Assembly: GCF_001547995.1 (NCBI RefSeq)
Contig: NZ_AP014690.1
Coordinates: 2,787,001-2,851,000 of the forward strand
Direction of reading: 5' to 3'
DNA length: 64,000 bases
Source: Asaia bogorensis NBRC 16594
GTDB taxonomy: Bacteria; Pseudomonadota; Alphaproteobacteria; Acetobacterales; Acetobacteraceae
Shown here: positions 8,384 to 22,767 of the stretch, piece after piece
Position numbering within the stretch: the stretch's first letter is position 1
How the letters are laid out: every line of letters begins with the position of its first letter
Made by a program: the position numbers and the translations under genes
Notes under the pieces: model-generated
Told to the model about the DNA's origin: nothing
The model's database searches: none
What the model saw: only the letters and a program-made list of their open reading frames with translations

Positions 8384-9430
8384 TCAGCTCAGGAGGCGAC
8401 CGATCACACGGGCCGTGTAATCCACCACAGGCACGATCCGCCCATAGTTGAGCCGTGTCGGGCCAATCACCCCGATGGCGCCGACAATGCGATTCGTTTC
8501 GTTGCGCGCCGGTGCCACGACCATCGATACGCCCGACATGCCAAAAAACCCGCTCTCGGCACCGATATAGATCCGTACACCATCCGATTCCTGCGCCAGC
8601 TGAAGCAGGCGCAGCATCGTTTCCTGCGCTTCCAGACGCTCAAAGAGCATCTGGATGGTCGTGAGTTTCTCGATTTCGGTGATGTCGGTCAGCAGATTGC
8701 CCTGCCCGCGCAGATAGAGCGTGCCATGCTGCTCATCCCACATCGCAAGACCACTCTCGATCACGCTGGTCGCCAGCACATCCAGATCAGAGCGGTTCTG
8801 CTGTAAATTCTCCGAGACGCGCTGGCGCAAGGCACTCAGTGTTACATCGCCAAGCAGGGAGTTGAGATAATTGCCCGCCTCGACAAGGGCTGACGGCGGC
8901 AGACCCGGTGGCGTTTCAATCACGCGGTTCTCGACCTGACCATCGGCGGCCACAAGGATCACCAGAGCCTTGCCCGGCCCGAGCGCGACAAATTCGATAT
9001 GCTTGAGGGCGCCATCGCCCTTGGGAGCCAGAACCAGACCGGCTGCGGCCGAAAGCCCTGAAAGCATGGAGGAGGCCTCAGCCAGTGTCTCCTGCATGGA
9101 TCGCCCCTTGAGCGCCAGACGCCCGGCAATCTGGGCGCGCTCCAGTTCATCGAGCGCACCGAACTGCAACAGGCCGTCCACGAACAGTCGCACGCCTTTC
9201 TCGGTGGGCAGGCGACCCGCCGAGACATGGGGGCTGAACAGCAATCCGGCCTGGGTCAGTTCCGCCATGACATTGCGTATTGTCGCGGGAGAGAGCGAGG
9301 GCGTCAGGCGCTGGGCAAGCGTCTTGCTGGCCACGGGATCACCCGTCTCCATGTATTGCTCGACAATCTCGCGCAGCACATTCGCCGACCGGGCATCCAT
9401 GCCACCCGGCAGGTTTGAAAGATCGATCAT
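8384..9430 (-). CDS. hrcA: Heat-inducible transcription repressor HrcA
   Basis: HrcA, 348 residues from ATG 9430. It has an N-terminal winged-helix DNA-binding region (TLAQRLTPSLSPATIRNVMAEL), a GRLPTEKG segment, then the GAF-like domain and C-terminal YGRIVPVVDYTARVIGRLL. HrcA with GroEL represses heat-shock operons through CIRCE operators. ATG 9430 is preceded by AAGGGG at suitable spacing, so it is preferred over a GTG 14 codons upstream. No CIRCE element (TTAGCACTC-N9-GAGTGCTAA) is visible next to the gene, and grpE, often adjacent, is not in the window. Confidence 0.93.
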   Translation of the reverse strand: MIDLSNLPGGMDARSANVLREIVEQYMETGDPVASKTLAQRLTPSLSPATIRNVMAELTQAGLLFSPHVSAGRLPTEKGVRLFVDGLLQFGALDELERAQIAGRLALKGRSMQETLAEASSMLSGLSAAAGLVLAPKGDGALKHIEFVALGPGKALVILVAADGQVENRVIETPPGLPPSALVEAGNYLNSLLGDVTLSALRQRVSENLQQNRSDLDVLATSVIESGLAMWDEQHGTLYLRGQGNLLTDITEIEKLTTIQMLFERLEAQETMLRLLQLAQESDGVRIYIGAESGFFGMSGVSMVVAPARNETNRIVGAIGVIGPTRLNYGRIVPVVDYTARVIGRLLS

Positions 9431-9532
9431 GCCCTGCCCCTTTTCCCGACGCGCCCGCTGGCTTCCTGTCACTGTCCCGAGCGACTAGACCTGTCACGAC
9501 GTGTCCTGTCCATCCGCTTCGGAGTCGTGCCG

Positions 9533-10321
9533 ATGACCCGCCTTGCAGCCTTATATATCCATCCTGTCAAAAGCCTGCACCGGGTTGATATGACGGCACT
9601 CGAACTCGACCCCTGGGGGCCGCGTGGCGACCGACGCTGGCTCGTGATCGCGCCAGACGGCCGCTTCATGACGCAGCGTCAGCATCCGGCCATGGCACGT
9701 ATCCTGACGGCGCTGAACGGTGAGACACTTCACCTCACTGGTAGCGACGGCTCGGCGCTGAGGATCGATCCGCCTGCCCCTCAGGCACCCGCAATCACAG
9801 TAAGCGTCTGGAAGGACCATGCCATTGCGGCACGGGATGCAGGAGACGAGGCAGCGGCATGGCTGAGCGCTATTCTCGGCACAGCGTGCAGGCTCGTGCA
9901 TATGGCCGACCCGGCCCATGCCAGACCGACCGATTTCGGCAGTGTGAGCTTTGCAGACGGGTTTCCCCTGCTCGTCACCAACACAGCGTCACTCGAGGAC
10001 CTCAACGCCCGTCTAGATCAGCCCGTACCGATGGAGCGTTTCAGGCCCAATATCGTCATCGAGACCGATCAGCCCTGGGCGGAGGATGAATGGCGCTCCA
10101 TCCGGATCGGTACAGTTGAACTCGACCTGGTCAAACCCTGCAGCCGCTGCATCGTCACCACCATCGACCAGGAGAGCGGGACGATTCCTGTTCCGCGCGA
10201 GCCTCTCAAGACCATGACCGGGTTTCGCCACCGTCCCGGTGGGGTCATGTTCGGCCAGAATGCGGTCATCCGCCACGCAGGGACCATCCGACTTGGGGAT
10301 GCGGTTGAACTGATCGACTGA
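9533..10321 (+). CDS. MOSC-domain protein (YcbX/mARC-like)
   Basis: A 262-residue protein with an N-terminal MOSC_N beta-barrel (LAALYIHPVKSLHRV, DRRWLVIAPDG) and a C-terminal MOSC domain (RFRPNIVIET, LVKPCSRC). The C203/C206 pair lies in the segment that contacts the sulfurated molybdenum cofactor in YcbX and mARC proteins. Those enzymes reduce N-hydroxylated compounds. This protein has no ferredoxin domain, so it would need a separate electron donor. GGAG at 9521-9524 favours ATG 9533 over the GTG six bases earlier. It lies between hrcA and rph. Confidence 0.85.
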   Translation: MTRLAALYIHPVKSLHRVDMTALELDPWGPRGDRRWLVIAPDGRFMTQRQHPAMARILTALNGETLHLTGSDGSALRIDPPAPQAPAITVSVWKDHAIAARDAGDEAAAWLSAILGTACRLVHMADPAHARPTDFGSVSFADGFPLLVTNTASLEDLNARLDQPVPMERFRPNIVIETDQPWAEDEWRSIRIGTVELDLVKPCSRCIVTTIDQESGTIPVPREPLKTMTGFRHRPGGVMFGQNAVIRHAGTIRLGDAVELID

Positions 10322-10332
10322 GCGGGTCGGCT

Positions 10333-10350
10333 GGGCACGACGCCGTGCCC
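10333..10350 (+). terminator. Hairpin after the MOSC gene
   Basis: GGGCACG (10333-10339) and CGTGCCC (10344-10350) form a 7-bp stem with a 4-base loop, just after the MOSC stop codon. No T-run follows, so termination would be weak or Rho-assisted. The rest of the gap up to rph at 10547 holds nothing I recognise. Confidence 0.4.
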
Positions 10351-10546
10351 GGTTATCCTGACAATCTGCCCCTGGTCGGAGGACGCGTGCCTTACCCGTT
10401 GCCTTCGGTGATGGCGGTAACGGCAGGGTCCCGGACGGACCTGACCCGCATGGTTCTGCCTTGTCATTCGGCTTTGTCATTCAGGGCCCCAGGCGCTAAA
10501 GCTGCACCCGACCGCATCTCTGCGCTTGAAACGAGGAAAACGCTCC

Positions 10547-11308
10547 ATGTCCAGCACCCGCCCTTCAGGCCGCAAGGCCGACGAGAACCGCGTCGTTTCC
10601 ATCGAGCCGGGCTTTGCCCGCCATGCCGAGGGCTCCGTGCTGATCCGCGTGGGTGGCACCGAGGTTCTTTGTGCAGCCTCGATCGAAAATCGCGTGCCGC
10701 CTTTCCTGCGTGGTCAGGGCCAGGGCTGGATTACCGCGGAATACGGCATGCTGCCGCGCGCGACGCATACCCGTGGCAACCGTGAAGCAGCCAAGGGCAA
10801 GCAGTCGGGCCGTACGCAGGAAATCCAGCGCCTTATCGGCCGCGCCCTGCGCGCCTGTGTGGACCTGCGTGCCCTGGGCGAGATGACCATCACGCTCGAT
10901 TGCGACGTGCTCAATGCCGATGGTGGCACGCGCTGCGCCGCCATTACAGGGGCCTGGGTGGCCCTTGCCATTGCTCTCGACAAGCAGATCAAGGCTGGCG
11001 TGCTCAAGCGCTCGCCCCTGCGTGCGCAGGTGGCTGCGGTCTCCTGCGGTCTGACCGATGCCGGCGCTGTGCTCGATCTCGATTACATTGAAGACAGCTC
11101 AGCTCAGGCCGATACGAATTTCGTTCTGACCAGCGAAGGCGGCATTGTCGAAATTCAGGGCACCGCAGAAGACGCACCGTTCAGCGAGAGCGAATTCGCC
11201 TCGCTGATGGCGCTTGCGAAGCTGGGCACGTCGCGCCTGTTCGATGCCCAGCGCGAGGCGCTTGAGAGCGTGACAAACAGCAGCGCTGCAAACGGAAAAA
11301 CAGCGTGA
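10547..11308 (+). CDS. rph: Ribonuclease PH
   Basis: A 253-residue RNase PH, the phosphate-dependent 3'-5' exonuclease that trims tRNA 3' ends. Recognised segments are the N-terminal [11 protein letters not shown], the phosphate-site [17 protein letters not shown] and [22 protein letters not shown] 10547 follows an AGGA motif by ten bases. An in-frame TTG at 10526 is less likely. The stop codon overlaps the rdgB start by four bases (GTGA), so the two are translationally coupled, as in many alphaproteobacteria. Confidence 0.95.
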
Positions 11309-11952
11309 GCAGCGCGGCGCCTGCCGACATGACCGAGCCCGGCCAACGGGTTCTCAGGCGAGGCGAGCGCGTTGTGCTCGCCAGCCACAACAAGGGCAAG
11401 CTGGCTGAATTCCGGGTTCTGCTGGCCGATAGCGGCATCGAGATCGTCTCGGCAGCCGAACTCTCTTTGCCCGAGCCGGAAGAGACGGCTGACAGTTTTG
11501 AGGGCAATGCCGCCATCAAGGCACTCGCTGCAGCGCGCGCGACGGGGCTGCCTGCCCTGTCTGATGACTCCGGATTCTGCGTCAGCGCCCTTGAAGGGCG
11601 TCCCGGCGTCTATTCAGCCCGCTGGGCCGGCCCGGGCGGTGACATGCAGGTGGCCATGCAGCGCGTTCATGACGAAATGAACGACGCGGCCGATCGCTCG
11701 GCCTCCTTCGTGGCTGTGCTCTGCGTTGCATGGCCGGATGGTGTGACACGCTACGCCGAAGGCCGTTGCGAAGGGGCGGTCTGCTGGCCGCCACGCGGCG
11801 CGCACGGCCATGGTTACGACCCGATTTTCATTCCCGAAGGTGATTGCCGCAGTTTTGCCGAACTCTCGGCGGAAGAAAAGAACGCGACCAGCCATAGAGG
11901 TCGTGCGTTGGCCCGGTTTCTGGAGACCTGCGTCGCACCCGATGGCGACTGA
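11305..11952 (+). CDS. rdgB: XTP/dITP diphosphatase (non-canonical purine NTP pyrophosphatase)
   Basis: A 215-residue HAM1/RdgB-family protein that hydrolyses dITP, XTP and ITP to monophosphates to keep deaminated purines out of nucleic acids. Visible motifs are the substrate-site [11 protein letters not shown], the metal-site [27 protein letters not shown] with the acidic pair, GHGYDPIF and the C-terminal SHRGRAL. GTG 11305 overlaps the rph stop codon. An internal ATG at 11329 is a less likely start. Confidence 0.95.
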
Positions 11953-11973
11953 ATTCCAACAGGAGTACCCGTC

Positions 11974-12690
11974 ATGAAGAAAGGCTTGTTCCTTTTTCCG
12001 GCCTGCGCCCTTGCCTCCTTTGTGGCGGCAGCCCATGCGGCGCCCGTTTTTGATCCGACCGGCTTTGACCTGCGTGAAACAAAGGCCTTCAGCATGTCGG
12101 TCCTGCCCGCCACTGCATTAGGGCAGCCCAAGGCCGATGCCCCGTATCGTCTGACGCCGGGCGGCATTGCCCTGAGCAGTGAAGCGCGCAAGCCAACAGC
12201 CTATCACGCACGCCAGCCCCGGACAGAGTTTTCCGAATCCCGTCCCTGGCGTGTGGCTGACGCCGAAGCCATGCTTGATGCGACGATTCATATCGATCGT
12301 TTCCCCAAAAGCGGGAATGTCGTGTTGGCCGAACTGACCGCCGATGAGGATGCGACCCCGATCCTGCGCATTCTGGTTGATGGCGACCGTCTGGTGCTGC
12401 ATGGCCAGGTCGACAATGCGCCAGAGAATGGCGTTGTGCTCGGCACGCTGGACGACACCCACACCGCCCATATCATGCTTCACACACGCCCTGACGGCAT
12501 GATGACAGTAGCGGCCAACGGAACGCCCAGCACATTCCGCCTGTCACCTCAGGCGATGGCAATCCCAGTGATGTTCCGCACCGGCGCCCACGCCATCAAT
12601 GATATTGGCACGACGCCAGACCAGATTGCGGTGACGCTGACAGGGCTGAGCGTTCATCATGGTGCCGCGCAATCAGGCCTTCGCTCGTAG
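11974..12690 (+). CDS. Secreted alginate-lyase-like (PL7 fold) protein, catalytic residues apparently lost
   Basis: A 238-residue protein with a clear signal peptide ending AAHA at residues 19-22. The mature part resembles the concanavalin-like jelly roll of polysaccharide lyase family 7. RTEFSE stands where PL7 has R-(S/T)-E-(L/V)-R, a TPILRILVDGDRLVLHG strand follows, and MFRTGAHAIND aligns in place with the Y-F-K-A-G-x-Y-x-Q motif. The catalytic Q-I-H motif appears as AEL (VVLAELTADED), and the tyrosine of the last motif is absent. I infer a non-catalytic, carbohydrate-binding or cell-surface role. AGGAG at 11961-11965 sets the start. The last 18 bases overlap the convergent LysE gene. Confidence 0.55.
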   Translation: MKKGLFLFPACALASFVAAAHAAPVFDPTGFDLRETKAFSMSVLPATALGQPKADAPYRLTPGGIALSSEARKPTAYHARQPRTEFSESRPWRVADAEAMLDATIHIDRFPKSGNVVLAELTADEDATPILRILVDGDRLVLHGQVDNAPENGVVLGTLDDTHTAHIMLHTRPDGMMTVAANGTPSTFRLSPQAMAIPVMFRTGAHAINDIGTTPDQIAVTLTGLSVHHGAAQSGLRS

Positions 12691-13302
12691 GATCACGATC
12701 CCGAAGGCGACAAACACGATGGCGGTCAGACGATTGAAAGCCCGTCTGACCGGCCGGCGTGACAGAAAACGCGAGAGCGACTGGCCGCCCAGTCCGTAAA
12801 GGGTGAGCCACAACCCGTCCGAAAAAAGATAGGTCACAACCAGTATGCCGAATTGCGGCAGAACAGGCTGATGATGATCAATGAATTGCGGGAAGAAAGC
12901 AGCCGCAAAAAGCAGTAATTTGGGATTGCTGATACCGACCAGAAACCCGGTGCGGTACAGAACCCAGCGGCTCACGGGCGCGGCTTTTCCTGTTTCCGTA
13001 TCTGGCACCTCCGGCGTATCACTCGCACGCCAGGCCTTGATCCCCAGATAGACCAGATAGGCGGCGCCAGCATAACGGATGATGTTGAACAGCCGAGGCA
13101 TGGCCACAAGAACGGCGCCGATACCAATCACTGACAGAACGAGCGCGAGAAGCAACGCGGTAATACAGCCCGCCATGGCGGCAATACTGCGATTGAAGCC
13201 GACCTGAACACTGCGACTGAGCGCATGCATCATATTCGGGCCAGGTGTCGCTGAAATGAAAAATACCGTGACAACGAATAGCCACCAGGTTTGCAGGGTC
13301 AT
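12673..13302 (-). CDS. LysE/RhtB-family amino-acid exporter
   Basis: A 209-residue inner-membrane protein with the LysE-superfamily opening ISATPGPNMMHALSRSVQVG and about six hydrophobic segments. A conserved GISNPKLLLFAAAFFPQF lies in the middle. Proteins of this size export amino acids such as homoserine, threonine or lysine. The frame is open to 13476, but ATG 13302 gives the family length and the first membrane helix. Its 3' end overlaps the secreted-protein gene by 18 bases, tail to tail. Confidence 0.85.
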   Translation of the reverse strand: MTLQTWWLFVVTVFFISATPGPNMMHALSRSVQVGFNRSIAAMAGCITALLLALVLSVIGIGAVLVAMPRLFNIIRYAGAAYLVYLGIKAWRASDTPEVPDTETGKAAPVSRWVLYRTGFLVGISNPKLLLFAAAFFPQFIDHHQPVLPQFGILVVTYLFSDGLWLTLYGLGGQSLSRFLSRRPVRRAFNRLTAIVFVAFGIVILRAKA

Positions 13303-13663
13303 ATGAGGCACCGCGAGGAAAGGGTCACGAATTCCTTTGAAGGATAGCGGATTATATCCTCTCGCAAAGGAGAAAGATGTGCCTGCACAGAGCACTGCTT
13401 TCGCCCTCGATCTCATGAAAAAAATAGCAATTTTTTCGTAGTAACGACGGAAAGCGCATGACCTGAAAAGCATCACTATGCGGCGTAAGTGTTGATATCT
13501 ATATGTAATCTCTCACGATATATCCGCATTGATTACTGGATTTGTCACGATGGATCGCGCTTAGTTCATCGGACTGACAATTGTCGCGCCCATCGATACG
13601 CGCCAATATTGAGTTGGGCTTCATTCAACGGCCTTCACGGCAAACAACAAGAGAGCCAAAATC
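13303..13663. other. AT-rich intergenic region upstream of the bacteriocin-like gene
   Basis: This 361-base gap separates the LysE gene from the double-glycine peptide gene and is less GC-rich than its surroundings. It contains an A/T inverted repeat (GAAAAAA at 13417-13423 against TTTTTTC at 13431-13437) and a 10-bp palindrome GACAATTGTC (13576-13585). Both are candidate regulator or bent-DNA sites. No promoter with good -35 and -10 elements stands out. Small frames here lack ribosome-binding sites. Confidence 0.5.
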
Positions 13664-13975
13664 ATGCGCGAACTGAACTCAACTGAAATTGAAACTGTCA
13701 GCGGAGCCGGTTTCTTCAGCAATTTCGGATTCCAGCTTGGCAGCGCCATCGGCAACATTGTCGATTGGTCCACAAAGGCGATCAGTGGCAAGGCGCCCGT
13801 AGCCAGCGCTGTCGCAGGTGCTTCCAACCTCGGCACGGGCATCGGTGAAATTGTCGACTCGATCGCCTCCAACAGCCTCACCGGCGTGCCGCAGGCTGTC
13901 CAGACAACCGGTCTCGGGATCACCCAGATCGTTGCTACGGCCGTAGCTAACGCACCGGCCAGCAAGCCTGCCTAA
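13664..13975 (+). CDS. Putative double-glycine-leader peptide (bacteriocin/microcin-type precursor)
   Basis: A 103-residue precursor. Residues 1-15 fit a double-glycine leader cut by C39 peptidases: counted back from the expected cut after A15, L4 is -12, E8 is -8, I9 is -7, V12 is -4, G14 is -2 and A15 is -1. The mature part (about 88 residues) lacks cysteine, is nearly uncharged and is rich in Gly, Ala, Ile and Val. It holds an internal repeat, LGSAIGNIVD (25-34) and LGTGIGEIVD (56-65), with a weaker third copy GLGITQIVA (83-91). The repeats carry G-x3-G motifs, as in pore-forming class IIb bacteriocins. The adaptor and C39 transporter genes follow directly. No ORF next to it looks like an immunity protein. 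Confidence 0.75.
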   Translation: MRELNSTEIETVSGAGFFSNFGFQLGSAIGNIVDWSTKAISGKAPVASAVAGASNLGTGIGEIVDSIASNSLTGVPQAVQTTGLGITQIVATAVANAPASKPA

Positions 13976-13984
13976 AGTCTGAGC

Positions 13985-14028
13985 GTTCACTCCCTGCCAG
14001 TCTGAAATGCTGGCAGGGATGAACCTTT
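13985..14028 (+). terminator. Hairpin between the precursor and its export genes (partial terminator)
   Basis: GTTCACTCCCTGCCAG (13985-14000) pairs with CTGGCAGGGATGAAC (14010-14024), leaving one bulged C and a 9-base loop. CTTTTC follows. The stem is strong and the T-run short. It would favour abundant precursor mRNA with reduced read-through into the adaptor and transporter genes, a common arrangement in peptide-export operons. Confidence 0.65.
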
Positions 14029-14075
14029 TCTGAGCCCTCCCGTGTTCCCGATTTTTCTTCCGATTGTCGTCTTTT

Positions 14076-15416
14076 ATGACTTCTGACCTCTTCAGGCGCG
14101 AAGTTCTTGAAGCCCGGCGACAATCCTGGCTCGGGCGGGTTCAGCTTCTCCAACCCCTCTCCTTCCGACTTGTCGCTCTGGCGACAGTCGCCCTGTGCAT
14201 CGCGGCAACGCTCTATGCAGCTTTTGGTGTCTATACACGACGCGTGCATGCGACAGGCTATATGGCCCCACCTACCGGGCTGATCACCATTGCAGTCAAC
14301 ACGACGGGGGTTATCTCGGCACAAAAAGCCAGCGAGGGCCAACATGTTCACAAGGGCGACGTGCTCTATGTGATCAATATTGAAGCGACATCGAGTTCAG
14401 GCCCGACCCAGGCCCGTGTGCTCGATCATCTGCGCGAGCAGGCCGACATCCTGAAAAAACAGAAAGCCCTGAGGCTACAGGACGCACCCATCGAGAAAAC
14501 CTCGATTGCAACGCAGATCCGTTACCTCACGCAGCAGCACGATGAAATCCGGCGTCAGATCGAGAGCGATAACCACGTCTTGCCGATTGTCGAATCGGCG
14601 ATGAAGCGGATGCAGGCTGCCAAGTCACAGCACATCGTAACCGAAACGCAGTTCCAGAATCAGCTCTACACCTACGCACAGCTACTCAGCAGCCATGCCC
14701 AATTTCTGCAGAATATGAGCGGAATCGAGGGGCAGATTGCTGATCTGACCTCAAAGCTGGTGCGCTACGACACCCAGCAGGCGCGTGACCTCAACGACCT
14801 CGACAAGGAGATCGCGCGTATCCAGCAGCAGATCGTCGAGAGCGAAGCCCAGAAATCGAGCGTAGTCATTGCACCCGATGACGGCATCCTGACGGCCATA
14901 CGCAGTAATCTGGGTCAACATGTGCAGGCAGGGCAGACACTGGCCACTCTTCTGCCCACAGGGCACACGCTGGAGGCGATGCTCTTTGTCAACAGTGCCT
15001 CGATCGGGTTCCTGCATGAGGGTGAGCCGGTCCTGCTGCGTTACGATGCCTTCCCCTATCAGCGCTTCGGGCTTTATCGCGGCAAGGTTCTCGAAGTGAC
15101 CCGCGCCCCTGTCTCGATCACTGAAGCCAGTCCTGCCCCCACCGCCGCAGGCAAAGGCACCGGGACTGAACGCGGCTCGGACCCGTCTCTCTATCGCATA
15201 CGGATCCTGCCCGATCAGGATTACGTCAACGCCTATGGAAAACAGATGCCGCTCCAGGCCGGAATGGCCGTGCAGGCCGATATCGCCATCGATACCCGCA
15301 GACTCTATCAGTGGATTTTCGACCCGCTGATCAGTGTCCGTGATGACATCTATATGGTGAGCGGCGGCATGGTGAGTGGCAACGAGGCGACCGGCAACAG
15401 GGTGACGGGGCGATGA
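14076..15416 (+). CDS. HlyD/CvaA-family membrane-fusion (adaptor) protein
   Basis: A 446-residue periplasmic adaptor. One hydrophobic segment near residues 30-52 anchors it in the inner membrane. A lipoyl-like half motif near 75-100 (VISAQKASEGQHVHKGDVLY) and its partner near 270-300 (SVVIAPDDGILTAIRSNLGQ, VQAGQTL) flank a long helical coiled-coil stretch rich in Gln and Glu. It should link the inner-membrane ABC exporter to an outer-membrane TolC-type channel, which is not in the window. ATG 14076 is chosen over TTG 14064. Its stop overlaps the transporter start by four bases (ATGA), so the two are co-translated. Confidence 0.9.
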   Translation: MTSDLFRREVLEARRQSWLGRVQLLQPLSFRLVALATVALCIAATLYAAFGVYTRRVHATGYMAPPTGLITIAVNTTGVISAQKASEGQHVHKGDVLYVINIEATSSSGPTQARVLDHLREQADILKKQKALRLQDAPIEKTSIATQIRYLTQQHDEIRRQIESDNHVLPIVESAMKRMQAAKSQHIVTETQFQNQLYTYAQLLSSHAQFLQNMSGIEGQIADLTSKLVRYDTQQARDLNDLDKEIARIQQQIVESEAQKSSVVIAPDDGILTAIRSNLGQHVQAGQTLATLLPTGHTLEAMLFVNSASIGFLHEGEPVLLRYDAFPYQRFGLYRGKVLEVTRAPVSITEASPAPTAAGKGTGTERGSDPSLYRIRILPDQDYVNAYGKQMPLQAGMAVQADIAIDTRRLYQWIFDPLISVRDDIYMVSGGMVSGNEATGNRVTGR

Positions 15417-17560
15417 AGGCCCTCAAATCCCTCGCCTATGGTTTCCAGCCCCGTACGCCGGTCATTCTGCAGGTTGAGGCCGCCGAGTGCGGCATGGCCT
15501 GTCTGGCCATGATCCTTGGGCATTATGGCAACCGCATCGATTTGCCGACGCTCAGGCGACGGTTTGCCCTCTCGATCAAGGGCAGCACGCTGCGCGACCT
15601 GATGGCCACGGCCGAGCGTGTGGGCCTGACAACGCGTGCCGTGCGTCTGGAACTGGACGAATTATCGGGGCTCCGCCTGCCCTGCATCCTGCACTGGAAC
15701 ATGAACCACTTCGTGGTTCTTACTGCCGTCAACGGCAAACGGGTCACGATCCATGATCCCGCTTTCGGGCGGCGCAGCCTGCCCATCGAGACGGTCTCGC
15801 GCGAGTTCACGGGTATCGCGCTTGAGGCGTTCCCCAATGAGAATTTCCGAAAGGAGGATGCCCGGGAGACCCTGCGCCTGCGGGATCTGTTCAGGCATGT
15901 CGCCGGACTGCGCTCATCCCTGCTGATGCTGGGAGCATTGTCGCTCGGGCTCGAAGTCATTGCGATCATCATGCCGATGGTATCGCAGGTGATTATCGAC
16001 GAGGTTGTTGTCACCTCGGATCGCGAGTTGCTGAGCACGATCGCCGCTGGCGTGGCGCTCTTGCTGCTCCTGCAACTCCTCATTGCCTGCGTGCGGCAAT
16101 GGTCCGTGCTTATCATGGGCACCCGGGTAGGGCTCCAGTGGAATACCGGGCTCTTCAACCACCTTTCCCGCCTGCCGCTCGATTATTTCGCCAAACGCCA
16201 TGTGGGCGATATCCTGTCGCGCTTCAACGCCATCGCCTCGATCCAGAAGACCATGACCACCGATATGGTTCAAACGGTCATGGACGGCCTCATGGCCGTG
16301 GGCATGGGCGTGATGTTGTTCATCTATGGCGGGTGGCTGGCTGTCGTGGCGCTGATCGCCGTGACACTGGATGTGACGCTGAGGCTCTTTACCTACCGTC
16401 TCTATCGCGAAGCGAATGAAGAGCAGATCGTTTTTGATGCCCGCCAGCAAAGTCATTTCATCGAAACGCTACGCGGCATGGCCAGCGTAAAGCTGCTGGG
16501 CCTGCGCGAGAGCCGTCGCATCTCATGGCTCAATCTGGTGATCGACAGTATCAATGTCCGGCTTCGCATCCAGCGCTACGACCTTATTTATGGCAGGCTG
16601 GCTGAGCTGATTTTCGGGGCAGACAGGCTCATCATGATGGTGCTCGGCGCGATGGCCGTCATGAAAGGGGCCATGACTGTTGGCATGCTCGTCGCATTCC
16701 TGTCCTACAAAGACCAGTTTGCAGGGCGTATCGGCAGCCTGATCAGCAGCGGCTTCCAGATCCGCATGCTCAGCGTGCAGACAGAACGCCTGTCAGATAT
16801 CGTCATGACCCCAACGGAGCCGTCCGAGCCTACGACCAGCCTTGTCCCCCGGCCCGACGGGGGCGGCCAGGGAGCTCTTGCCTGCCAGGGCCTCTCCGCC
16901 CGCTATGGCGCGCATGATGCCTGGGTCTTTCGCGACATTTCCCTCGATGTCCCTGCCGGACAGATTATTGCGGTCGTGGGGCCTTCGGGCTGCGGCAAGA
17001 CGACTTTTCTCAAGACGCTCATGGGGCTGATGGAGCCGTCATCAGGCAAGATCACGCTTGATGGCGAGTCGATCGAGGCCCTGACGCTGGAGGGGTATCG
17101 TAGCCGCATCGCCGGCGTCCTTCAGGATGACGGCCTCTTTTCGGGGTCGATCGCCGATAATATCAGCGGCTTCAATGAGGAAATCGATCAGGCATGGCTC
17201 AGGGAATGTGCCAGCAGAGCCGCCATATTGCAGGATATCGAGCATATGCCGATGGGGTTCGATACCCTGATTGGCGATATGGGCGCAGGACTTTCCGGTG
17301 GACAGAAACAACGCATCATTCTGGCGCGCGCACTCTATCGCAAACCCGATATCCTGTTTCTGGACGAGGCCACCAGCCATCTGGATGAAATGACCGAGGC
17401 CCATGTCGCCGCTGCATTGCGCGCCATGAATGTCACCCAGATCATCGTGGCCCATCGACCGGCGACCATTGCCCATGCCGATCGGATCTATGTTTTCCAG
17501 CCAGGTGGCGTGCTGCAGGAATATCTCCCCCAAGGCCACGATGCCTCGGCACCTGCTTAA
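15413..17560 (+). CDS. Peptidase-containing ABC transporter (C39 bacteriocin processing/export)
   Basis: A 715-residue CvaB-type transporter that should cleave the leader and export the peptide. The N-terminal C39 peptidase has Q20, C26 (EAAECGMACLAMI), H99 (MNHFVVL) and D115 (TIHDPAFGR), the complete catalytic set. A six-helix membrane domain follows (about 165-440). The ATPase domain carries Walker A GPSGCGKTT (523-531), signature LSGGQKQR (about 626), Walker B DILFLDEATSHLD and H-loop AHR. It directly follows the double-glycine peptide and the adaptor. All active residues are intact, so the system looks functional. Confidence 0.95.
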   Translation: MKALKSLAYGFQPRTPVILQVEAAECGMACLAMILGHYGNRIDLPTLRRRFALSIKGSTLRDLMATAERVGLTTRAVRLELDELSGLRLPCILHWNMNHFVVLTAVNGKRVTIHDPAFGRRSLPIETVSREFTGIALEAFPNENFRKEDARETLRLRDLFRHVAGLRSSLLMLGALSLGLEVIAIIMPMVSQVIIDEVVVTSDRELLSTIAAGVALLLLLQLLIACVRQWSVLIMGTRVGLQWNTGLFNHLSRLPLDYFAKRHVGDILSRFNAIASIQKTMTTDMVQTVMDGLMAVGMGVMLFIYGGWLAVVALIAVTLDVTLRLFTYRLYREANEEQIVFDARQQSHFIETLRGMASVKLLGLRESRRISWLNLVIDSINVRLRIQRYDLIYGRLAELIFGADRLIMMVLGAMAVMKGAMTVGMLVAFLSYKDQFAGRIGSLISSGFQIRMLSVQTERLSDIVMTPTEPSEPTTSLVPRPDGGGQGALACQGLSARYGAHDAWVFRDISLDVPAGQIIAVVGPSGCGKTTFLKTLMGLMEPSSGKITLDGESIEALTLEGYRSRIAGVLQDDGLFSGSIADNISGFNEEIDQAWLRECASRAAILQDIEHMPMGFDTLIGDMGAGLSGGQKQRIILARALYRKPDILFLDEATSHLDEMTEAHVAAALRAMNVTQIIVAHRPATIAHADRIYVFQPGGVLQEYLPQGHDASAPA

Positions 17561-17585
17561 AGTTCGATCCCATCCCCCAAGTTAT

Positions 17586-17602
17586 TCTGCCTTGAGGGCA
17601 GA
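17586..17602. terminator. Small hairpin between convergent ABC transporter genes
   Basis: TCTGCC (17586-17591) pairs with GGCAGA (17597-17602) around a 5-base loop in the 51-base gap between the two convergent transporter genes. There is no T-run, so it would be a weak terminator. Confidence 0.35.
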
Positions 17603-17611
17603 GATGACGCC

Positions 17612-19426
17612 TCAGCCCTCGAGCGACTGCAACTCGAACAGGCGGCGATAGATCCCCCCTTCACGCCGCACCAGCTCGGCATGCGAGCCATCCTCCTTCA
17701 GCGCGCCCTTGCTGAACACGAGGATACGGTCCAGCTCCATCACCGTGGACAACCGGTGCGCCACCACAATCACTGTGCGACCGGCCATCAGGCGATGCAT
17801 GGCGTCCTGCACCAGAACTTCGGACTCGGAATCGAGGCTGGACGTTGCCTCATCGAAAATCAGCAGGGGGGCGTCGGCCAGAAACGCACGGGCAATCGCC
17901 ACGCGCTGACGCTCACCGCCCGACAGCTTGACCCCACGCTCACCAACGAGCGTAGCGTAGCCTTCCGGCAGACGTTCGATAAACGCACTCGCATTGGCCA
18001 GCTGCGCGGCACGCTCGATTTCGGCCTGCGTTGCCCCCGGTCGGGCATAAGCGATATTTTCCGCAAGGGAACGATGGAACAGCATCGGCTCCTGCGGAAC
18101 GATGGCGATGTGGGCCCGCAATGAGTCCTGTGTGACATCGCGCACATCCACGCCATCGATCAGCACCCTGCCCCCAGTTGTGTCATAGAGACGCTGGATG
18201 AGCTTGGTGAAGGTCGTCTTGCCCGAACCGCTTGGCCCGACGAGAGCAACACGCGAACCGGGGGTGATCGAGACATCCAGATCACGATAAAGCGGCGTAT
18301 CCTGACCGGGATACTGGAACGTCACATTATCGAAACGAACGTCACCTTGCGTAAAGGCGGCCTTGCCCGCGCCCTTGTAGTCCTGAACGCCGGGCGCCTG
18401 ATCAAAAATGGCAACAAGCTCTTCCATCTCGTTGACAGAACGCTGGACCTGGCTGACCTGCTGGCCCAGGTCACGCAGATAGCCCTGAACAAGAAACACC
18501 ATCGTCAGCACATAGGCCACATCGCCGGGTCCGGCCTTGCCCTGCCACCATTGCCAGACGATCAGCGCCACCAGAAGCATACGCATGACCAGCGAGGCAA
18601 AGCCCTGCAGGTTGGCGCTGTTGGTCCCCCTGATCCAGGTGCGCGCCGTGCGCCCGCTCCAGGCGCGCAACACGCGGTCCAGCCGGCGTTCCTCGCGATG
18701 TTCGGCACCGAAAGCCTTGACCACGGCGTTGCAGGTCACGGCATCCGCAATGGCCGCGCCCACTTTCGTATCCCAGCGATTGGCCGCGCGGGCCGAAGGC
18801 GCCACGTAACGCAGTGTCAGCACGACGGAGAGCCAGGTGAACAGCACAACAGAAAGTGCCAGCACGGCCCCCATAAACGGAGAGTGCCATGCCAGAACAA
18901 GCGTGGTGCCGGTCAGGACCAGCACCTCCGGGGCAATCAGCAGCAGCAACGTGTCGTCAAGCGTGTCGATGGCCCACATGCCACGGGTCAGTTTGCGTAC
19001 GGTCGACCCTGCGAAATTATTGGCGTGCCAGTCGGTCGAAAAGCGCTGCACACGCGCAAAGCCCTGAGACAGGGCGCGCTGCATGATGGCAAGGCTGAGA
19101 TGCGTAATGCCAAGATAGGAGGAACGCCGCCCCAGAAGCCCCACCAGCCCAAGCGCGATCAGCCCACCCACCATGAACAGCGCATCATTGCGCAGGGCCA
19201 TTTGTGCGGCATCATGAGGGGCACCGCCAGTATGGCTGGAGATATCGGTTACCAGTCGACCCGACAGGACCGGCGTTGCCACGTCGGCAATGGTGGCGAG
19301 CGCAATACCGAGCACGGTGCGTGTCAGAAAGGCCGGATGCTCGAGCCATCGGCGCATCACGAAGCGCACGATATCGACAAAGGCGATATCGTGCGGCCGG
19401 GTCGGGGTGTTGTCGGTATTGGACAC
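17612..19426 (-). CDS. ABC exporter, MsbA/multidrug half-transporter type
   Basis: A 604-residue half-transporter with an N-terminal membrane domain (about residues 30-330) fused to an ATPase domain. The ATPase domain shows GPSGSGKTT (Walker A), a Q-loop in IAIVPQEP, signature KLSGGERQR, Walker B LLIFDEATSSLD and VAHRLST. It probably works as a homodimer exporting lipids or hydrophobic compounds. It is convergent with the bacteriocin-type transporter and has no peptidase domain. A role in self-protection is possible but not shown by anything in the sequence. Confidence 0.88.
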   Translation of the reverse strand: MSNTDNTPTRPHDIAFVDIVRFVMRRWLEHPAFLTRTVLGIALATIADVATPVLSGRLVTDISSHTGGAPHDAAQMALRNDALFMVGGLIALGLVGLLGRRSSYLGITHLSLAIMQRALSQGFARVQRFSTDWHANNFAGSTVRKLTRGMWAIDTLDDTLLLLIAPEVLVLTGTTLVLAWHSPFMGAVLALSVVLFTWLSVVLTLRYVAPSARAANRWDTKVGAAIADAVTCNAVVKAFGAEHREERRLDRVLRAWSGRTARTWIRGTNSANLQGFASLVMRMLLVALIVWQWWQGKAGPGDVAYVLTMVFLVQGYLRDLGQQVSQVQRSVNEMEELVAIFDQAPGVQDYKGAGKAAFTQGDVRFDNVTFQYPGQDTPLYRDLDVSITPGSRVALVGPSGSGKTTFTKLIQRLYDTTGGRVLIDGVDVRDVTQDSLRAHIAIVPQEPMLFHRSLAENIAYARPGATQAEIERAAQLANASAFIERLPEGYATLVGERGVKLSGGERQRVAIARAFLADAPLLIFDEATSSLDSESEVLVQDAMHRLMAGRTVIVVAHRLSTVMELDRILVFSKGALKEDGSHAELVRREGGIYRRLFELQSLEG

Positions 19427-19517
19427 GAGAGAAAGCTCCTCCGCCAGACGTTTGGCTGGGCGGGCATACTGGTAGTCTGGGGCGGGAAGCGCTTATTGTG
19501 GGGCTTCAAACGCCCTT

Positions 19518-20231
19518 ATGCAACATGATGAAATGGTTCTGATGTCTCTCCCCTCGGCCAAAAGACCCATGACACGTGCTCAGACCTGTCAGTTCATCAC
19601 GGCACTGGCCGAGTCCATGCCCGATGCCGAGAGCGAACTGGACTATACAGACGCTTTTTCCCTTCTCGTGGCCGTCGTGCTCTCGGCGCAGGCCACGGAT
19701 AAATCGGTCAACAAGGTCACGATCGGCCTGTTCCGTGACGCGCCGGATGCGCGTGCCATGGTAGCACTGGGCGAGGAGGGCATTGCCGCACATATCCGCA
19801 CCATCGGGCTGTGGCGCGCGAAGGCGAAGAACGTGCTCAGGCTCTCCGAGCAACTTCTCGCCCTGCATGGCGGGCAAGTGCCCTCGGATCGGGCTGCACT
19901 GGAGGCTCTGGCCGGGGTCGGGCGCAAAACGGCGAGCGTCGTGCTGAACGTCATGTTCGGTGAAAGCGCGATGGCTGTGGATACACATATCTTCAGGCTT
20001 GGAAACCGTACCGGTCTGGCCCCGGGCAAGACGACACGCGCCGTGGAAGAGGGGCTGATCAAGCGGATTCCCCCTGAAATGCTCCGCCCCTCACATCACT
20101 GGCTGATCCTGCATGGTCGTTATGTGTGCAAAGCCCGCAGCCCCGAATGTGGACGCTGCGTGGCCTTCACGCCTTGCCTTTTCCCGCTCAAGACCCAGAT
20201 CAAAAACGGCAACAAAGGAGAAAATACTTGA
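19518..20231 (+). CDS. nth: Endonuclease III (DNA glycosylase/AP lyase)
   Basis: A 237-residue Nth enzyme that removes oxidised pyrimidines and nicks the resulting abasic site. It has the helix-hairpin-helix with the catalytic lysine (LAGVGRKTASVVLN), the catalytic aspartate in AVDTHIFRL, and the C-terminal [4Fe-4S] site C-x6-C-x2-C-x5-C (CKARSPECGRCVAFTPC). ATG 19518 is the longest start. ATG 19533, ATG 19542 and ATG 19569 are alternatives. The stop codon overlaps the TTG start of the next gene. Confidence 0.95.
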   Translation: MQHDEMVLMSLPSAKRPMTRAQTCQFITALAESMPDAESELDYTDAFSLLVAVVLSAQATDKSVNKVTIGLFRDAPDARAMVALGEEGIAAHIRTIGLWRAKAKNVLRLSEQLLALHGGQVPSDRAALEALAGVGRKTASVVLNVMFGESAMAVDTHIFRLGNRTGLAPGKTTRAVEEGLIKRIPPEMLRPSHHWLILHGRYVCKARSPECGRCVAFTPCLFPLKTQIKNGNKGENT

Positions 20232-20515
20232 GCAGCTATATCGTATTCACCCGCGAAGAGACGCTCGACCAGAGTGAACTCGACACCTATTTCTCGCTCG
20301 TTGCCGAGACGTTTGAGGGCCATCCCTTAAAACCTGTGGTTGCCTATGGAGCGCAGAAATCATTGGAAGGCAGCGAGCCGGAAGGGATCGTCATTGTCGA
20401 ATTTCCCGACAAGGTCTCGGCGCTGGCCTGGTACGATGGCGACGCCTATCGCAAGGTGCGCGAACACCGCTTTGCTGGAGCAAGGTACCGCGCCACGCTC
20501 GTCGAAGGGGTGTGA
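20228..20515 (+). CDS. DUF1330 family protein
   Basis: A 95-residue protein of the DUF1330 family (dimeric alpha/beta-barrel fold), function unknown. Typical segments are the first strand SSYIVFTREE, GHPLKPVVAYG, EGIVIVEFPD and ALAWYDGDAYRKVREHR. The start is TTG 20228, which overlaps the nth stop (TTGA) and is preceded by AAAGGAG at 20214-20220. The strong ribosome-binding site decides for this unusual start codon over the longer frame. It is translationally coupled to nth. Confidence 0.8.
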   Translation: MSSYIVFTREETLDQSELDTYFSLVAETFEGHPLKPVVAYGAQKSLEGSEPEGIVIVEFPDKVSALAWYDGDAYRKVREHRFAGARYRATLVEGV

Positions 20516-20563
20516 CAAGACCCTGACCGGAATTCGGGCCGCTTACAGTCGGCCCGAAAACCC

Positions 20564-21277
20564 CTAGTTTCCACTTAGCGCCGGCACCGCTCCCATGGCG
20601 GCGAGGTCCCACCGTATCTGGAAGGCTTCCGTGCCCTTATAGGCACCGACATGAACATGCGGGTTGCGCGCAAAACCGTTATTGCTGTCTAGCGCCACGA
20701 CATCACCCGCTTTTACGTGATCCCCTTTCCTGACCCGGATATTGGCAATATGGGCATAGATTACATTCATGCCGTCAGTTCTGGTGAACATGATGGCGCT
20801 GGCCGGGGGTTTGCCCATATTTCCCGGGCTGTTGGTGACGGGATTCACATGCACATAGGTCACGACTGAATCAAACGGCGCATGCACGGTCTTGTGCCAG
20901 CCGTACCAGTCCGCGTTCTTTTCTCCGAGGCCGCGATAAAGCTTGTTGTAGCCGTGCGTAGCATCAGCGGCACCGCCTATGATCATACAATCAGTACCAA
21001 GCGCATCACCTGTACCCAGAAGCTGTCCTACCGGATGCTCCGCGCAGGCAAATGGCTCGTGAAAGAGTGGCGCAAGCGTCACCTGCTGAATCGGACCGAC
21101 GCGTGATGCCTTCTCTCCTACCCCGGGGGGTAAGCCCATCGCCTGCAACTGCTGATGCCAGGCATCGGCACCCGTTTCAGCAGTTGGCACGGCAAAGCAT
21201 TCTGGTGGGGCGATCAGCAGCCCTGTCGCCATAATGCCGAAACGACTGAGGGCAGTGATGATCCCTATCTTACCCAT
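20564..21277 (-). CDS. Exported M23-like (LytM) metallopeptidase-fold protein
   Basis: A 237-residue protein with a hydrophobic N-terminus that may be a signal peptide cut near ECFA (residues 26-29). The C-terminal half has the M23 barrel: VIYAHIANIRVRKGDHVKAG and the H-x-H motif NPHVHVGAY. The first metal site, usually H-x-G-x-D, is less standard. H in ATHGYNK and D in KNADWYGW are the likely ligands. M23 enzymes cut peptidoglycan cross-bridges or activate amidases. Whether this one is catalytic is uncertain. It is convergent with the nth-DUF1330 pair. Confidence 0.65.
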   Translation of the reverse strand: MGKIGIITALSRFGIMATGLLIAPPECFAVPTAETGADAWHQQLQAMGLPPGVGEKASRVGPIQQVTLAPLFHEPFACAEHPVGQLLGTGDALGTDCMIIGGAADATHGYNKLYRGLGEKNADWYGWHKTVHAPFDSVVTYVHVNPVTNSPGNMGKPPASAIMFTRTDGMNVIYAHIANIRVRKGDHVKAGDVVALDSNNGFARNPHVHVGAYKGTEAFQIRWDLAAMGAVPALSGN

Positions 21278-21404
21278 AAAAGCCTCCCTCCCTGTCCGGC
21301 CAGAGGCAAACCCTCACTCCTGAACCGGGAGAGAAGCTATCTTCATATGATACGACATCGCAATAGATGGCGATGGATATGGCCTCTAAGGGTCAGGCAT
21401 TGTG

Positions 21405-21434
21405 TTTACGGCGTGAAAATGAGGATGACATAAT
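21405..21434 (+). promoter_or_regulatory. Candidate promoter of the CPA1 antiporter gene
   Basis: TTTACG (21405-21410) and CATAAT (21429-21434) are separated by 18 bases, upstream of the antiporter start at 21517. Both hexamers are close to the sigma-70 consensus. This is the only good pair in the 239-base divergent gap. Activity is inferred. Confidence 0.3.
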
Positions 21435-21516
21435 GTGAGAAGCTGGACGAAGGACGTGCGTTCACGTTCTCATGCGGTAAAACGGCTCATCCCGGCATCA
21501 TCGGCAAAGAGATTTC

Positions 21517-22767
21517 ATGTCCTCCCTCAGCCTCTTCGCGATTCTTCTTACACTCTGCACGGCCTGCGGCATTCTCAATTACAAGCTGCTGCGCCTGCCC
21601 ATGACGATTGGCATCCTGCTGATTGCCTTGATCGTGTCGCTTGTGGTCAAGGGGCTGGACATGGCCCTGCCCAGTGTCGATCTGCACACTCTGCCCATGA
21701 CGCTTCTGGCCTCGGCTGACCTGCCTGGCAATTTGCTGGACGGTGCCTTGTCTTTCCTGCTTTTCGCCGGTGCCCTGCAGGTTGATACACGCCATCTGAT
21801 GGAGCGGAAATTCTCGGTATTTTTCCTCGCCATCGTGGGGACGATACTGGCGGTGTTCATGCTGGGCGGGGCCATGTACTGGGTCATGGCGCAGGTGGGA
21901 CTGCCCGTGCCATTCCTCTGGTGCGTGGTGCTAGGGGCCATTCTCGCGCCAACCGACCCCGTTTCGGTGGTGGGCATGTTGCGCCGGCTGGGTCTGCCAG
22001 GACCCATTCAGGCCATTTTTGCCGGAGAAAGCCTGTTCAATGACGGGGTGAGCATCGTGATTTTCGGCCTTGCCATGACACTGGTCACGGGCGAGGCGCA
22101 TCACCTGACCCTGATGGATGCCGCCGAAGCTTTTGGGATCGAGGCTGTAGGAGGTGCGGGTCTTGGTTTTGTGGCCGGTCTGATTGCTCTGCTCTGCTTT
22201 CGGGCTGCACGCGACAGCCACTTGCAGCTTCTGGTGTCGCTCAGCCTGGCGGCAGGCACATTCAGCCTTGCCCATGCGCTTGGCATGTCAGGCCCGATCG
22301 CCGTGGTCGTGGCAGGCCTCTGCCTGGGGAGCGAACGCGCCAAGAGCAGTATGGACGACCATGCGCGTGAGGAACTCAACAGCTTCTGGACACTCGTTGA
22401 CGAGATTCTGAACGCGCTCCTCTTCCTGATGATCGGCTTTGAGGTGCTGGCCGCCATTCCCAGCCAGCGTGCGCTCGTGGCCCTGCTTCTGGGTATCCCG
22501 CTTTCAATTGCAGCGAGGGCGCTCAGCGTGTTTCTCGCCATCCTGCCGATCCATCTTTATGGAGAAGATCGCGGGCGCATGCTGGCCGTGCTGACCTGGG
22601 GCGGATTGCGCGGTGGCATTTCTCTGTCGCTCGCGCTCACTTTGCCTGCCGGACCGATGAAGGAGGTTCTTGCCCCGATCTGCTACGGCATCGTGGTCTT
22701 TACCATTCTGGTGCAGGGATTGAGCATGGAGCGTGTCGCTCTTCATTTCTATCCAAAGAAGGGCTGA
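21517..22767 (+). CDS. CPA1-family Na+/H+ antiporter (NhaP type)
   Basis: A 416-residue membrane protein with about twelve hydrophobic segments. Diagnostic CPA1 motifs are GAILAPTDPVSVVGML, FAGESLFNDGVSIVIF with the acidic ND pair, and WGGLRGGISLSLALTLP. It should exchange cytoplasmic Na+ or K+ for protons and help in pH and salt tolerance. The C-terminus ends soon after the last helix, so there is no cytoplasmic regulatory tail. It faces comEC tail to tail with a 3-base gap. Confidence 0.9.
   Translation: MSSLSLFAILLTLCTACGILNYKLLRLPMTIGILLIALIVSLVVKGLDMALPSVDLHTLPMTLLASADLPGNLLDGALSFLLFAGALQVDTRHLMERKFSVFFLAIVGTILAVFMLGGAMYWVMAQVGLPVPFLWCVVLGAILAPTDPVSVVGMLRRLGLPGPIQAIFAGESLFNDGVSIVIFGLAMTLVTGEAHHLTLMDAAEAFGIEAVGGAGLGFVAGLIALLCFRAARDSHLQLLVSLSLAAGTFSLAHALGMSGPIAVVVAGLCLGSERAKSSMDDHAREELNSFWTLVDEILNALLFLMIGFEVLAAIPSQRALVALLLGIPLSIAARALSVFLAILPIHLYGEDRGRMLAVLTWGGLRGGISLSLALTLPAGPMKEVLAPICYGIVVFTILVQGLSMERVALHFYPKKG

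Follow-up and report, generated by a model that had tools for sequence, protein, structure and literature searches.

A three-gene cassette lies at positions 13664-17560 of a 64-kb stretch (hereafter the window) of the Asaia bogorensis NBRC 16594 genome, which consists of a single contig of 3,198,265 bases, the window covering 2,787,001-2,851,000. It encodes, in order, a peptide precursor, an HlyD-type adaptor and a C39-peptidase ATP-binding cassette (ABC) exporter, and we lean towards the view that its product is a small glycine-zipper bacteriocin, unmodified and of the class II microcin or Cdz-like sort. We favor this because the leader, the C39 exporter and the HlyD adaptor form one tight unit, because the cassette is present or absent at one site in Asaia and a relative is found on a Klebsiella plasmid, because all 11 genomes with strong matches to the peptide family carry the exporter type, and because in genus g31 the exporter is conserved while the cargo differs, as in Cdz-like systems (PMC5380434). 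In the proposed mechanism, the C39 domain would cut the precursor after A15, and the ABC exporter, the adaptor and an outer-membrane factor encoded elsewhere would export an 88-aa helix-forming peptide. Two GxxxG-type helices, predicted from a low-confidence model, would pack within or against the membranes of rival bacteria. Self-protection would come from outside the cassette, or the producer would be without the target. Processing and export are well supported by sequence considerations; we infer cleavage after A15 followed by export, and membrane action and killing would be the outcome. The best reading is that the peptide would act like a microcin or a Cdz-like peptide, with membership of neither group regarded as proven.

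Layout, leader and exporter

The features of the cassette are as follows.
13664..13975, + strand: precursor gene, an intact open reading frame (ORF) from ATG 13664 to TAA 13975, 103 aa (15-aa leader and 88-aa mature peptide)
13664..13708, + strand: double-glycine-type leader MRELNSTEIETVSGA, cleavage after A15 predicted from sequence
13727..13765, + strand: first glycine zipper and motif GFQLGSAIGNIVD, residues 22-34 (alignment, motif and zipper scans)
13820..13858, + strand: second glycine zipper and motif ASNLGTGIGEIVD, residues 53-65 (alignment, motif and zipper scans)
13981..14027, + strand: RNA hairpin directly 3' of the precursor stop (folding z -4.1)
14076..15416, + strand: HlyD-type membrane-fusion adaptor, 446 aa (HlyD_3)
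15413..17560, + strand: C39-peptidase ABC exporter, 715 aa (ATGA overlap with the adaptor; Pfam domains)
15455..15841, + strand: C39 peptidase domain with Q20, C26, H99 and D115 (Pfam; alignment to a solved C39 domain)
13303..17615, no strand: stretch missing at the empty site in G002, a close relative within Asaia (nucleotide alignment)

An ORF check agreed with a preliminary description of this DNA on the gene order, the coordinates and the ATGA coupling of adaptor and exporter. The adaptor most likely starts at ATG 14076; the mechanical ORF opens at TTG 14064. The leader places L, E, I, V, G and A at positions -12, -8, -7, -4, -2 and -1, respectively, the spacing claimed in that description. 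The strict leader motif was found within the first 45 residues of 7 of 16,307 shuffled ORFs and in one other window ORF of at least 30 aa, which is antisense to the exporter, and thus the leader is not a chance occurrence. The adaptor scores above the Pfam cut-off for HlyD_3 (53.4 bits), as does the exporter for Peptidase_C39 (126.7 bits), ABC_membrane (112.9 bits) and ABC_tran (113.1 bits). The peptidase domain aligns with the solved C39 domain 6mpz (E 2.2e-27) and, as had been claimed, has its Q, C, H and D residues intact (Q20, C26, H99, D115), and the ATPase contains the Walker A, signature and Walker B motifs. The exporter scored well under the cut-offs of the NCBIfam models for NHLP-type exporters (514.4 bits for TIGR03796, cut-off 853.3), and is the sole match to PF03412 in the genome. 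The OEP domain gave 26 matches in the genome, none within the cassette; candidate TolC-type proteins are encoded by unlinked genes. The cassette had also been described as self-contained, which is wrong, since the cassette lacks a TolC-type gene, its outer-membrane partner being unlinked, and an immunity gene dedicated to it was not recognized.

The mature peptide and its relatives

At the level of sequence, twin glycine-zipper motifs, missed in the preliminary description, tie the mature peptide to a wider family. Its two zippers lie in copies of the motif [LIVM]GxxIGxxxD, which also occurs in peptides next to this type of exporter in other acetic acid bacteria. The mature peptide (88 aa, 8,488 Da, pI 6.1) is cysteine-free and carries zippers at G22-G26-G30 and A53-G57-G61, the second of which opens with Ala, not Gly. 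Both zippers are flanked but uninterrupted by proline or charge, and the C-terminus, VANAPASKPA, has one N, one S and one K amid A, P and V. Of the 13 family peptides in one alignment, 12 carry two copies of the motif [LIVM]Gxx[ILVM]GxxxD, and the other (L169) has a single copy in the strict form. Among 16,307 ORFs, two copies were found in 14, all of them family members (L156 and L157 repeat L003 and L002), and one copy in 13. Two copies arose in none of 5000 shuffles per peptide, or 1 of 5000 for L177, numbers that are optimistic since the motif was written after viewing these peptides. Internal-repeat self-alignment was weak, the motif test being the stronger of the two, with the score of the window peptide reached by 9 of 300 shuffles and those of other members by 0 to 121 of 300. 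A looser scan detected GxxxG-type zippers in all 17 members of a later alignment (A3). An AlphaFold model, of low confidence and built from three sequences, places helices at residues 6-12, 17-41, 47-68 and 75-95. A search of solved structures with the peptide profile returned three matches, at E 1.9 or worse.

A family profile was made from the three Asaia mature peptides, with the leader removed. Against the 16,307 ORFs, which derive from 128 loci, it identified precursors that adjoin exporters in genus g41. The best of these reached E 2.5e-7, a further four rows 1.2e-5 to 1.3e-5 and one 4e-5, with paralogs at 0.014 to 0.38; one shuffled ORF matched, at E 0.85. The preliminary description had named, as part of what would refute it, a lack of homologous precursors beside this exporter in related genomes; such precursors were found in Asaia and in genus g41, and this part of the refutation fails. 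We also searched 397 genomes of the window's taxonomic family, a sample uncorrected for relatedness between genomes. With an E value of 0.01 or better, the profile matched 25 of the 397; values below 1e-10 were reached in 11, namely three Asaia, seven g41 and one g31, with weak matches at E 1e-4 to 1e-2 left out of the counts. All 11 are among the 94 genomes that carry the exporter type (E 1e-40 or better). Phylum-wide, 6 of 398 sampled genomes matched at E 0.001, and only the window's own genome and two g41 genomes did so strongly; three weak matches outside the family were left out of the counts.

The arrangement of the genes varies in genus g41, where genomes measure 1.9-2.6 Mb and four loci have a GC content of 0.31-0.35. 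One g41 genome (G250) has 11 profile matches, ten of them below 1e-10, and a single exporter match. Five of its precursors stand in tandem upstream of adaptor and exporter, and the remaining copies are scattered; locus L173 (8220-10463) shows five tandem family precursors upstream of HlyD and exporter genes, separated by 275, 92, 79 and 175 bases. The 11 scattered copies in ten loci (L236-L245) are stand-alone genes, located in L238, L241, L242 and L243 between an mnmE-like and an ogt-like gene (named by eye). Small membrane-type neighbors, unlike each other, occur in L240 (a 153-aa ORF with two hydrophobic stretches, downstream of the copy) and in L239 (an 85-aa lipoprotein-like ORF on the opposite strand, near the copy). 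Among the 11 strongly matching genomes, the family peptide also lies away from the exporter locus in G038, on a different contig, and in G219, at a distance of ~160 kb. Three g41 genomes (L169, L170, L174) have a repressor-like gene of ~250 aa (named by eye) upstream of HlyD, ahead of the precursor region.

A 72-aa relative (49% identity over 65 residues) is encoded on a plasmid of Klebsiella michiganensis that derives from the fruit fly Bactrocera dorsalis, with an HlyD gene and a C39 exporter gene (43%) in the same orientation. This cassette (L251 7001-12989, NZ_CP048111.1) is preceded by transposase genes, and transposase-like ORFs separate its peptide gene from HlyD. When the Klebsiella stretch was searched against E. 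coli, the 20 matches listed of 329 covered the downstream flank (query 373-496) and not the peptide gene; they are annotated as IS5 transposase or flippase. A g31 relative, queried without its first residue, matched nothing among plasmids.

Loci L158-L164 of genus g31 encode exporters 67-77% identical to that of the window, and at least three double-glycine peptides that look unrelated by eye. This combination of a conserved exporter with differing peptides is a sign of cargo replacement. The leader-peptide scan found none in L161 and L164, the latter of which starts only 391 bases before HlyD. In Serratia and some acetic acid bacteria, a second double-glycine-leader family, with a GGxHGGDGGGxLGIGSIGQ-like core, is found close to related exporters (L172 7372-7764, L182, L184, L185, L005, L006). 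It shares a related exporter and leader with the window, but its mature sequences look unrelated by eye, marking another cargo family.

Within Asaia, A. siamensis and A. prunellae have the same gene order in the same place, and their precursors share 69-70% identity with that of the window. The ratio of nonsynonymous to synonymous substitution (dN/dS) in the mature part is ~0.12 between the window and A. siamensis and 0.06 when the two relatives are compared with each other, with dS near saturation; between the window and A. prunellae dS is beyond saturation and gives no ratio. The A. prunellae HlyD gene (L003 3689-5004) is split over two reading frames in the draft, through sequencing error or a real break, and was left out of the dN/dS table. 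The family profile matches three of nine Asaia-set genomes at E up to 1; a match in G003 (E 0.08) from an earlier search was discounted and stands outside the counts. In the six other Asaia genomes, LysE-like and MsbA-like genes adjoin at the site and no cassette is found there (two of these genomes are only 85-88% complete, with the site itself visible). The closest, G002, has flanks of ~90% and 88% nucleotide identity; its alignment ends at 13302 and restarts at 17616, with 234 bases between the flanking blocks. It encodes a 54% exporter elsewhere in the genome, beside which a leader-peptide scan found none. The six genomes may have lost the cassette or never gained it. The region between rdgB and the MsbA-like gene may be an old or favored site, because an exporter with other cargo in a genome of genus g55 (G254, L172) also lies between these two genes (~10 kb apart, with other genes intervening). 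The MsbA-like ABC transporter (window 17612-19426, - strand, convergent to the cassette) is not part of the system, since it is present in all nine Asaia-set genomes regardless of the cassette.

Bacteriocin and alternative readings

The Cdz-like criteria fit more of the observations than the class II microcin set does. As in the Cdz system of Caulobacter crescentus, also an alphaproteobacterium, and in Cdz-like systems, a small glycine-zipper peptide with a G[G/A/S] leader adjoins a type I secretion system (PMC5380434). The precursor falls within the 60-151 residues given for such peptides (103 aa, leader ending in GA), has two glycine zippers where one or two are asked for, and lies within 10 kb of the secretion system. 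A short charged or polar C-terminus is also expected of such peptides, and the window peptide ends with single N, S and K residues among A, P and V. Cdz-like systems mostly have a single peptide, patchy presence and variable cargo, as seen here (PMC5380434). Cdz proper has two peptides and the immunity protein CdzI with three transmembrane segments, whereas the window has one peptide and no such gene was recognized (PMC5380434); the cassette contains no small membrane ORF, in an inspection that did not search for CdzI itself. By description only, the window peptide differs from CdzC and CdzD: its G/A/V/I share is lower, its zippers contain polar residues, and a third helix is predicted.

The class II microcin set consists of a precursor, an immunity protein, a C39 exporter, an adaptor and TolC (PMC9746304). 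Four of the five were found, counting unlinked outer-membrane factors; the immunity protein was not. Like the microcin V type (PF17508), the window system has a GG/GA leader, the GA ending being allowed in class II microcins (PMC9746304), a C39 ABC exporter with Cys, His and Asp, an HlyD membrane-fusion protein and an unlinked TolC-type protein. The MccV model has 104 positions, against 103 aa for the precursor; of the 13 family members, 8 match it weakly at E up to 1, the best at 3e-4. The window peptide differs from this type in falling below the family cut-off, in its twin zipper motif and in having no recognized immunity gene. Other matches were to Gly-zipper_Omp (3 of 13 members, best 1.4e-3) and to a glycine-zipper lipoprotein model (4 of 13, best 0.003).

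Several observations weigh against a bacteriocin. The sole Pfam match of the window peptide is MccV, at 13.8 bits (E 0.09, gathering threshold 27), and it spans residues 1-55, leader included. The MccV matches may lean on the leader, and single members reach similar E values with unrelated families (DUF6426, 2.7e-4; YitT, 2.7e-3). No Pfam or NCBIfam cut-off was reached, the bacteriocin-leader search being limited to these models, with no dedicated leader hidden Markov model (HMM) run. G, A, V and I make up 49% of the mature peptide, compared to 75% quoted for CdzC/CdzD, and the three-helix model has a mean pLDDT of 63.6. The dN/dS values show a mature peptide constrained within Asaia, with no visible diversification. 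Finally, by eye, no immunity gene was recognized among ORFs of at least 40 aa on both strands of window positions 9000-22000, nor was a dedicated one recognized beside the stand-alone scattered relatives. Class II microcins are described as lying next to an immunity gene (PMC13101503, PMC9746304).

The exporter-strand ORFs of at least 40 aa in 22 loci likewise shared no small membrane ORF by eye, membrane helices being judged by a simple hydropathy threshold. We considered several candidates. Under a published size rule (30-250 aa among the six nearest genes, PMC9746304), the LysE-like gene (209 aa), a 238-aa ORF and rdgB were candidates by size only; all three are present in six of six Asaia genomes without the cassette at the site, and were rejected. 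An antisense 114-aa ORF (13621-13965) was dismissed on having only 64 aa in A. siamensis, and a lipoprotein near precursors in L239 and L249 on having no match in nine Asaia genomes, in a search without a positive control.

On sequence grounds such as the weak MccV match, the peptide may be an antimicrobial or a signal, as the preliminary description put it, or may serve another purpose. Processing and export would be alike for a non-toxin secreted glycine-zipper peptide, such as a self-assembling surface or biofilm component, a signal, or an insect or plant host-directed factor, which we regard as possible but less probable. The unrecognized immunity genes, the many peptide copies against one exporter in G250 and the low dN/dS of the mature part are consistent with such a role, and CdzC is known to form surface aggregates and glycine zippers to occur in amyloids (PMC5380434). 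However, a site that is occupied in some genomes and empty in others, and a conserved exporter whose cargo has been replaced, are described for Cdz-like antagonistic systems, for which immunity genes are also hard to identify (PMC5380434), and the weak MccV similarity of the family argues for a toxin. Tentatively, we suggest that the peptides form a new twin-glycine-zipper exported family in acetic acid bacteria, which in one genus would consist of stand-alone genes genome-wide, exported in trans by one C39 exporter and with no cognate immunity genes; these would be non-toxic surface or host-directed peptides, or bacteriocins with shared self-protection encoded elsewhere.

Autolysis, in which bacteriocin-like double-glycine peptides lyse the producer's own population, has a published precedent in the Gram-negative Neisseria, whose Naps spare competitors (PMC11798529). 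The Naps are, however, short (16-36 aa) and cationic and come with a putative immunity protein, NapI (PMC11798529), whereas the window peptide has 88 aa and a pI of 6.1, making this very improbable here. A decaying or inactive remnant is, in our judgment, at least as improbable: the frame-split HlyD gene of the A. prunellae draft and the six Asaia genomes without the cassette at the site would agree with decay, but all three window genes are intact, the catalytic and ATPase motifs are present, and dN/dS is low where measurable.

Literature context and the precursor transcript

The accessible main text of PMC5380434 names no Asaia, Commensalibacter, Gluconobacter, Acetobacter, Gluconacetobacter or Komagataeibacter; its supplementary list may include the Asaia peptide. 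The accessible text of two microcin surveys (PMC13174018, PMC11494933) does not name Asaia, Acetobacter or Gluconobacter. In the literature on bacteriocins and microcins of Asaia, Commensalibacter and Acetobacteraceae, from which most subscription papers were absent, no title or start of an abstract among the matches listed describes the window peptide, and a search for double-glycine bacteriocins of acetic acid bacteria found no paper. Gluconacin is a bacteriocin of another acetic acid bacterium (PMC10535834). A bacteriocin exporter gene is reported in all Commensalibacter genomes studied (PMC10149009), whereas no bacteriocins were reported from 22 Bombella genomes screened with BAGEL4 (PMC9147383). 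Standard bacteriocin mining may pass over peptides of this sort. An exported peptide that shapes the gut bacterial company, or touches the host, would bear on the symbiotic life of Asaia. A microcin is commonly assumed to need its own immunity gene; the family provides a way of testing this in nature, and the cassette-free sister genomes with a clean site allow a straightforward comparison.

A sigma-70 scan found no promoter-like site, and a terminator scan, which requires a T run, found three terminator-like sites, none of them the hairpin at 13981-14027. Hairpins follow the precursor stop in five of six cases tested (z of -4.1 in the window, -4.6 in L002, -2.5 in L003, -7.2 in L170 and -3.3 in L169), with none in L177 (z 0.4), and the stems of the three Asaia hairpins differ in sequence. 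The hairpin may protect the precursor message as a 3'-end stabilizer, or may stop part of the transcripts ahead of the exporter genes.

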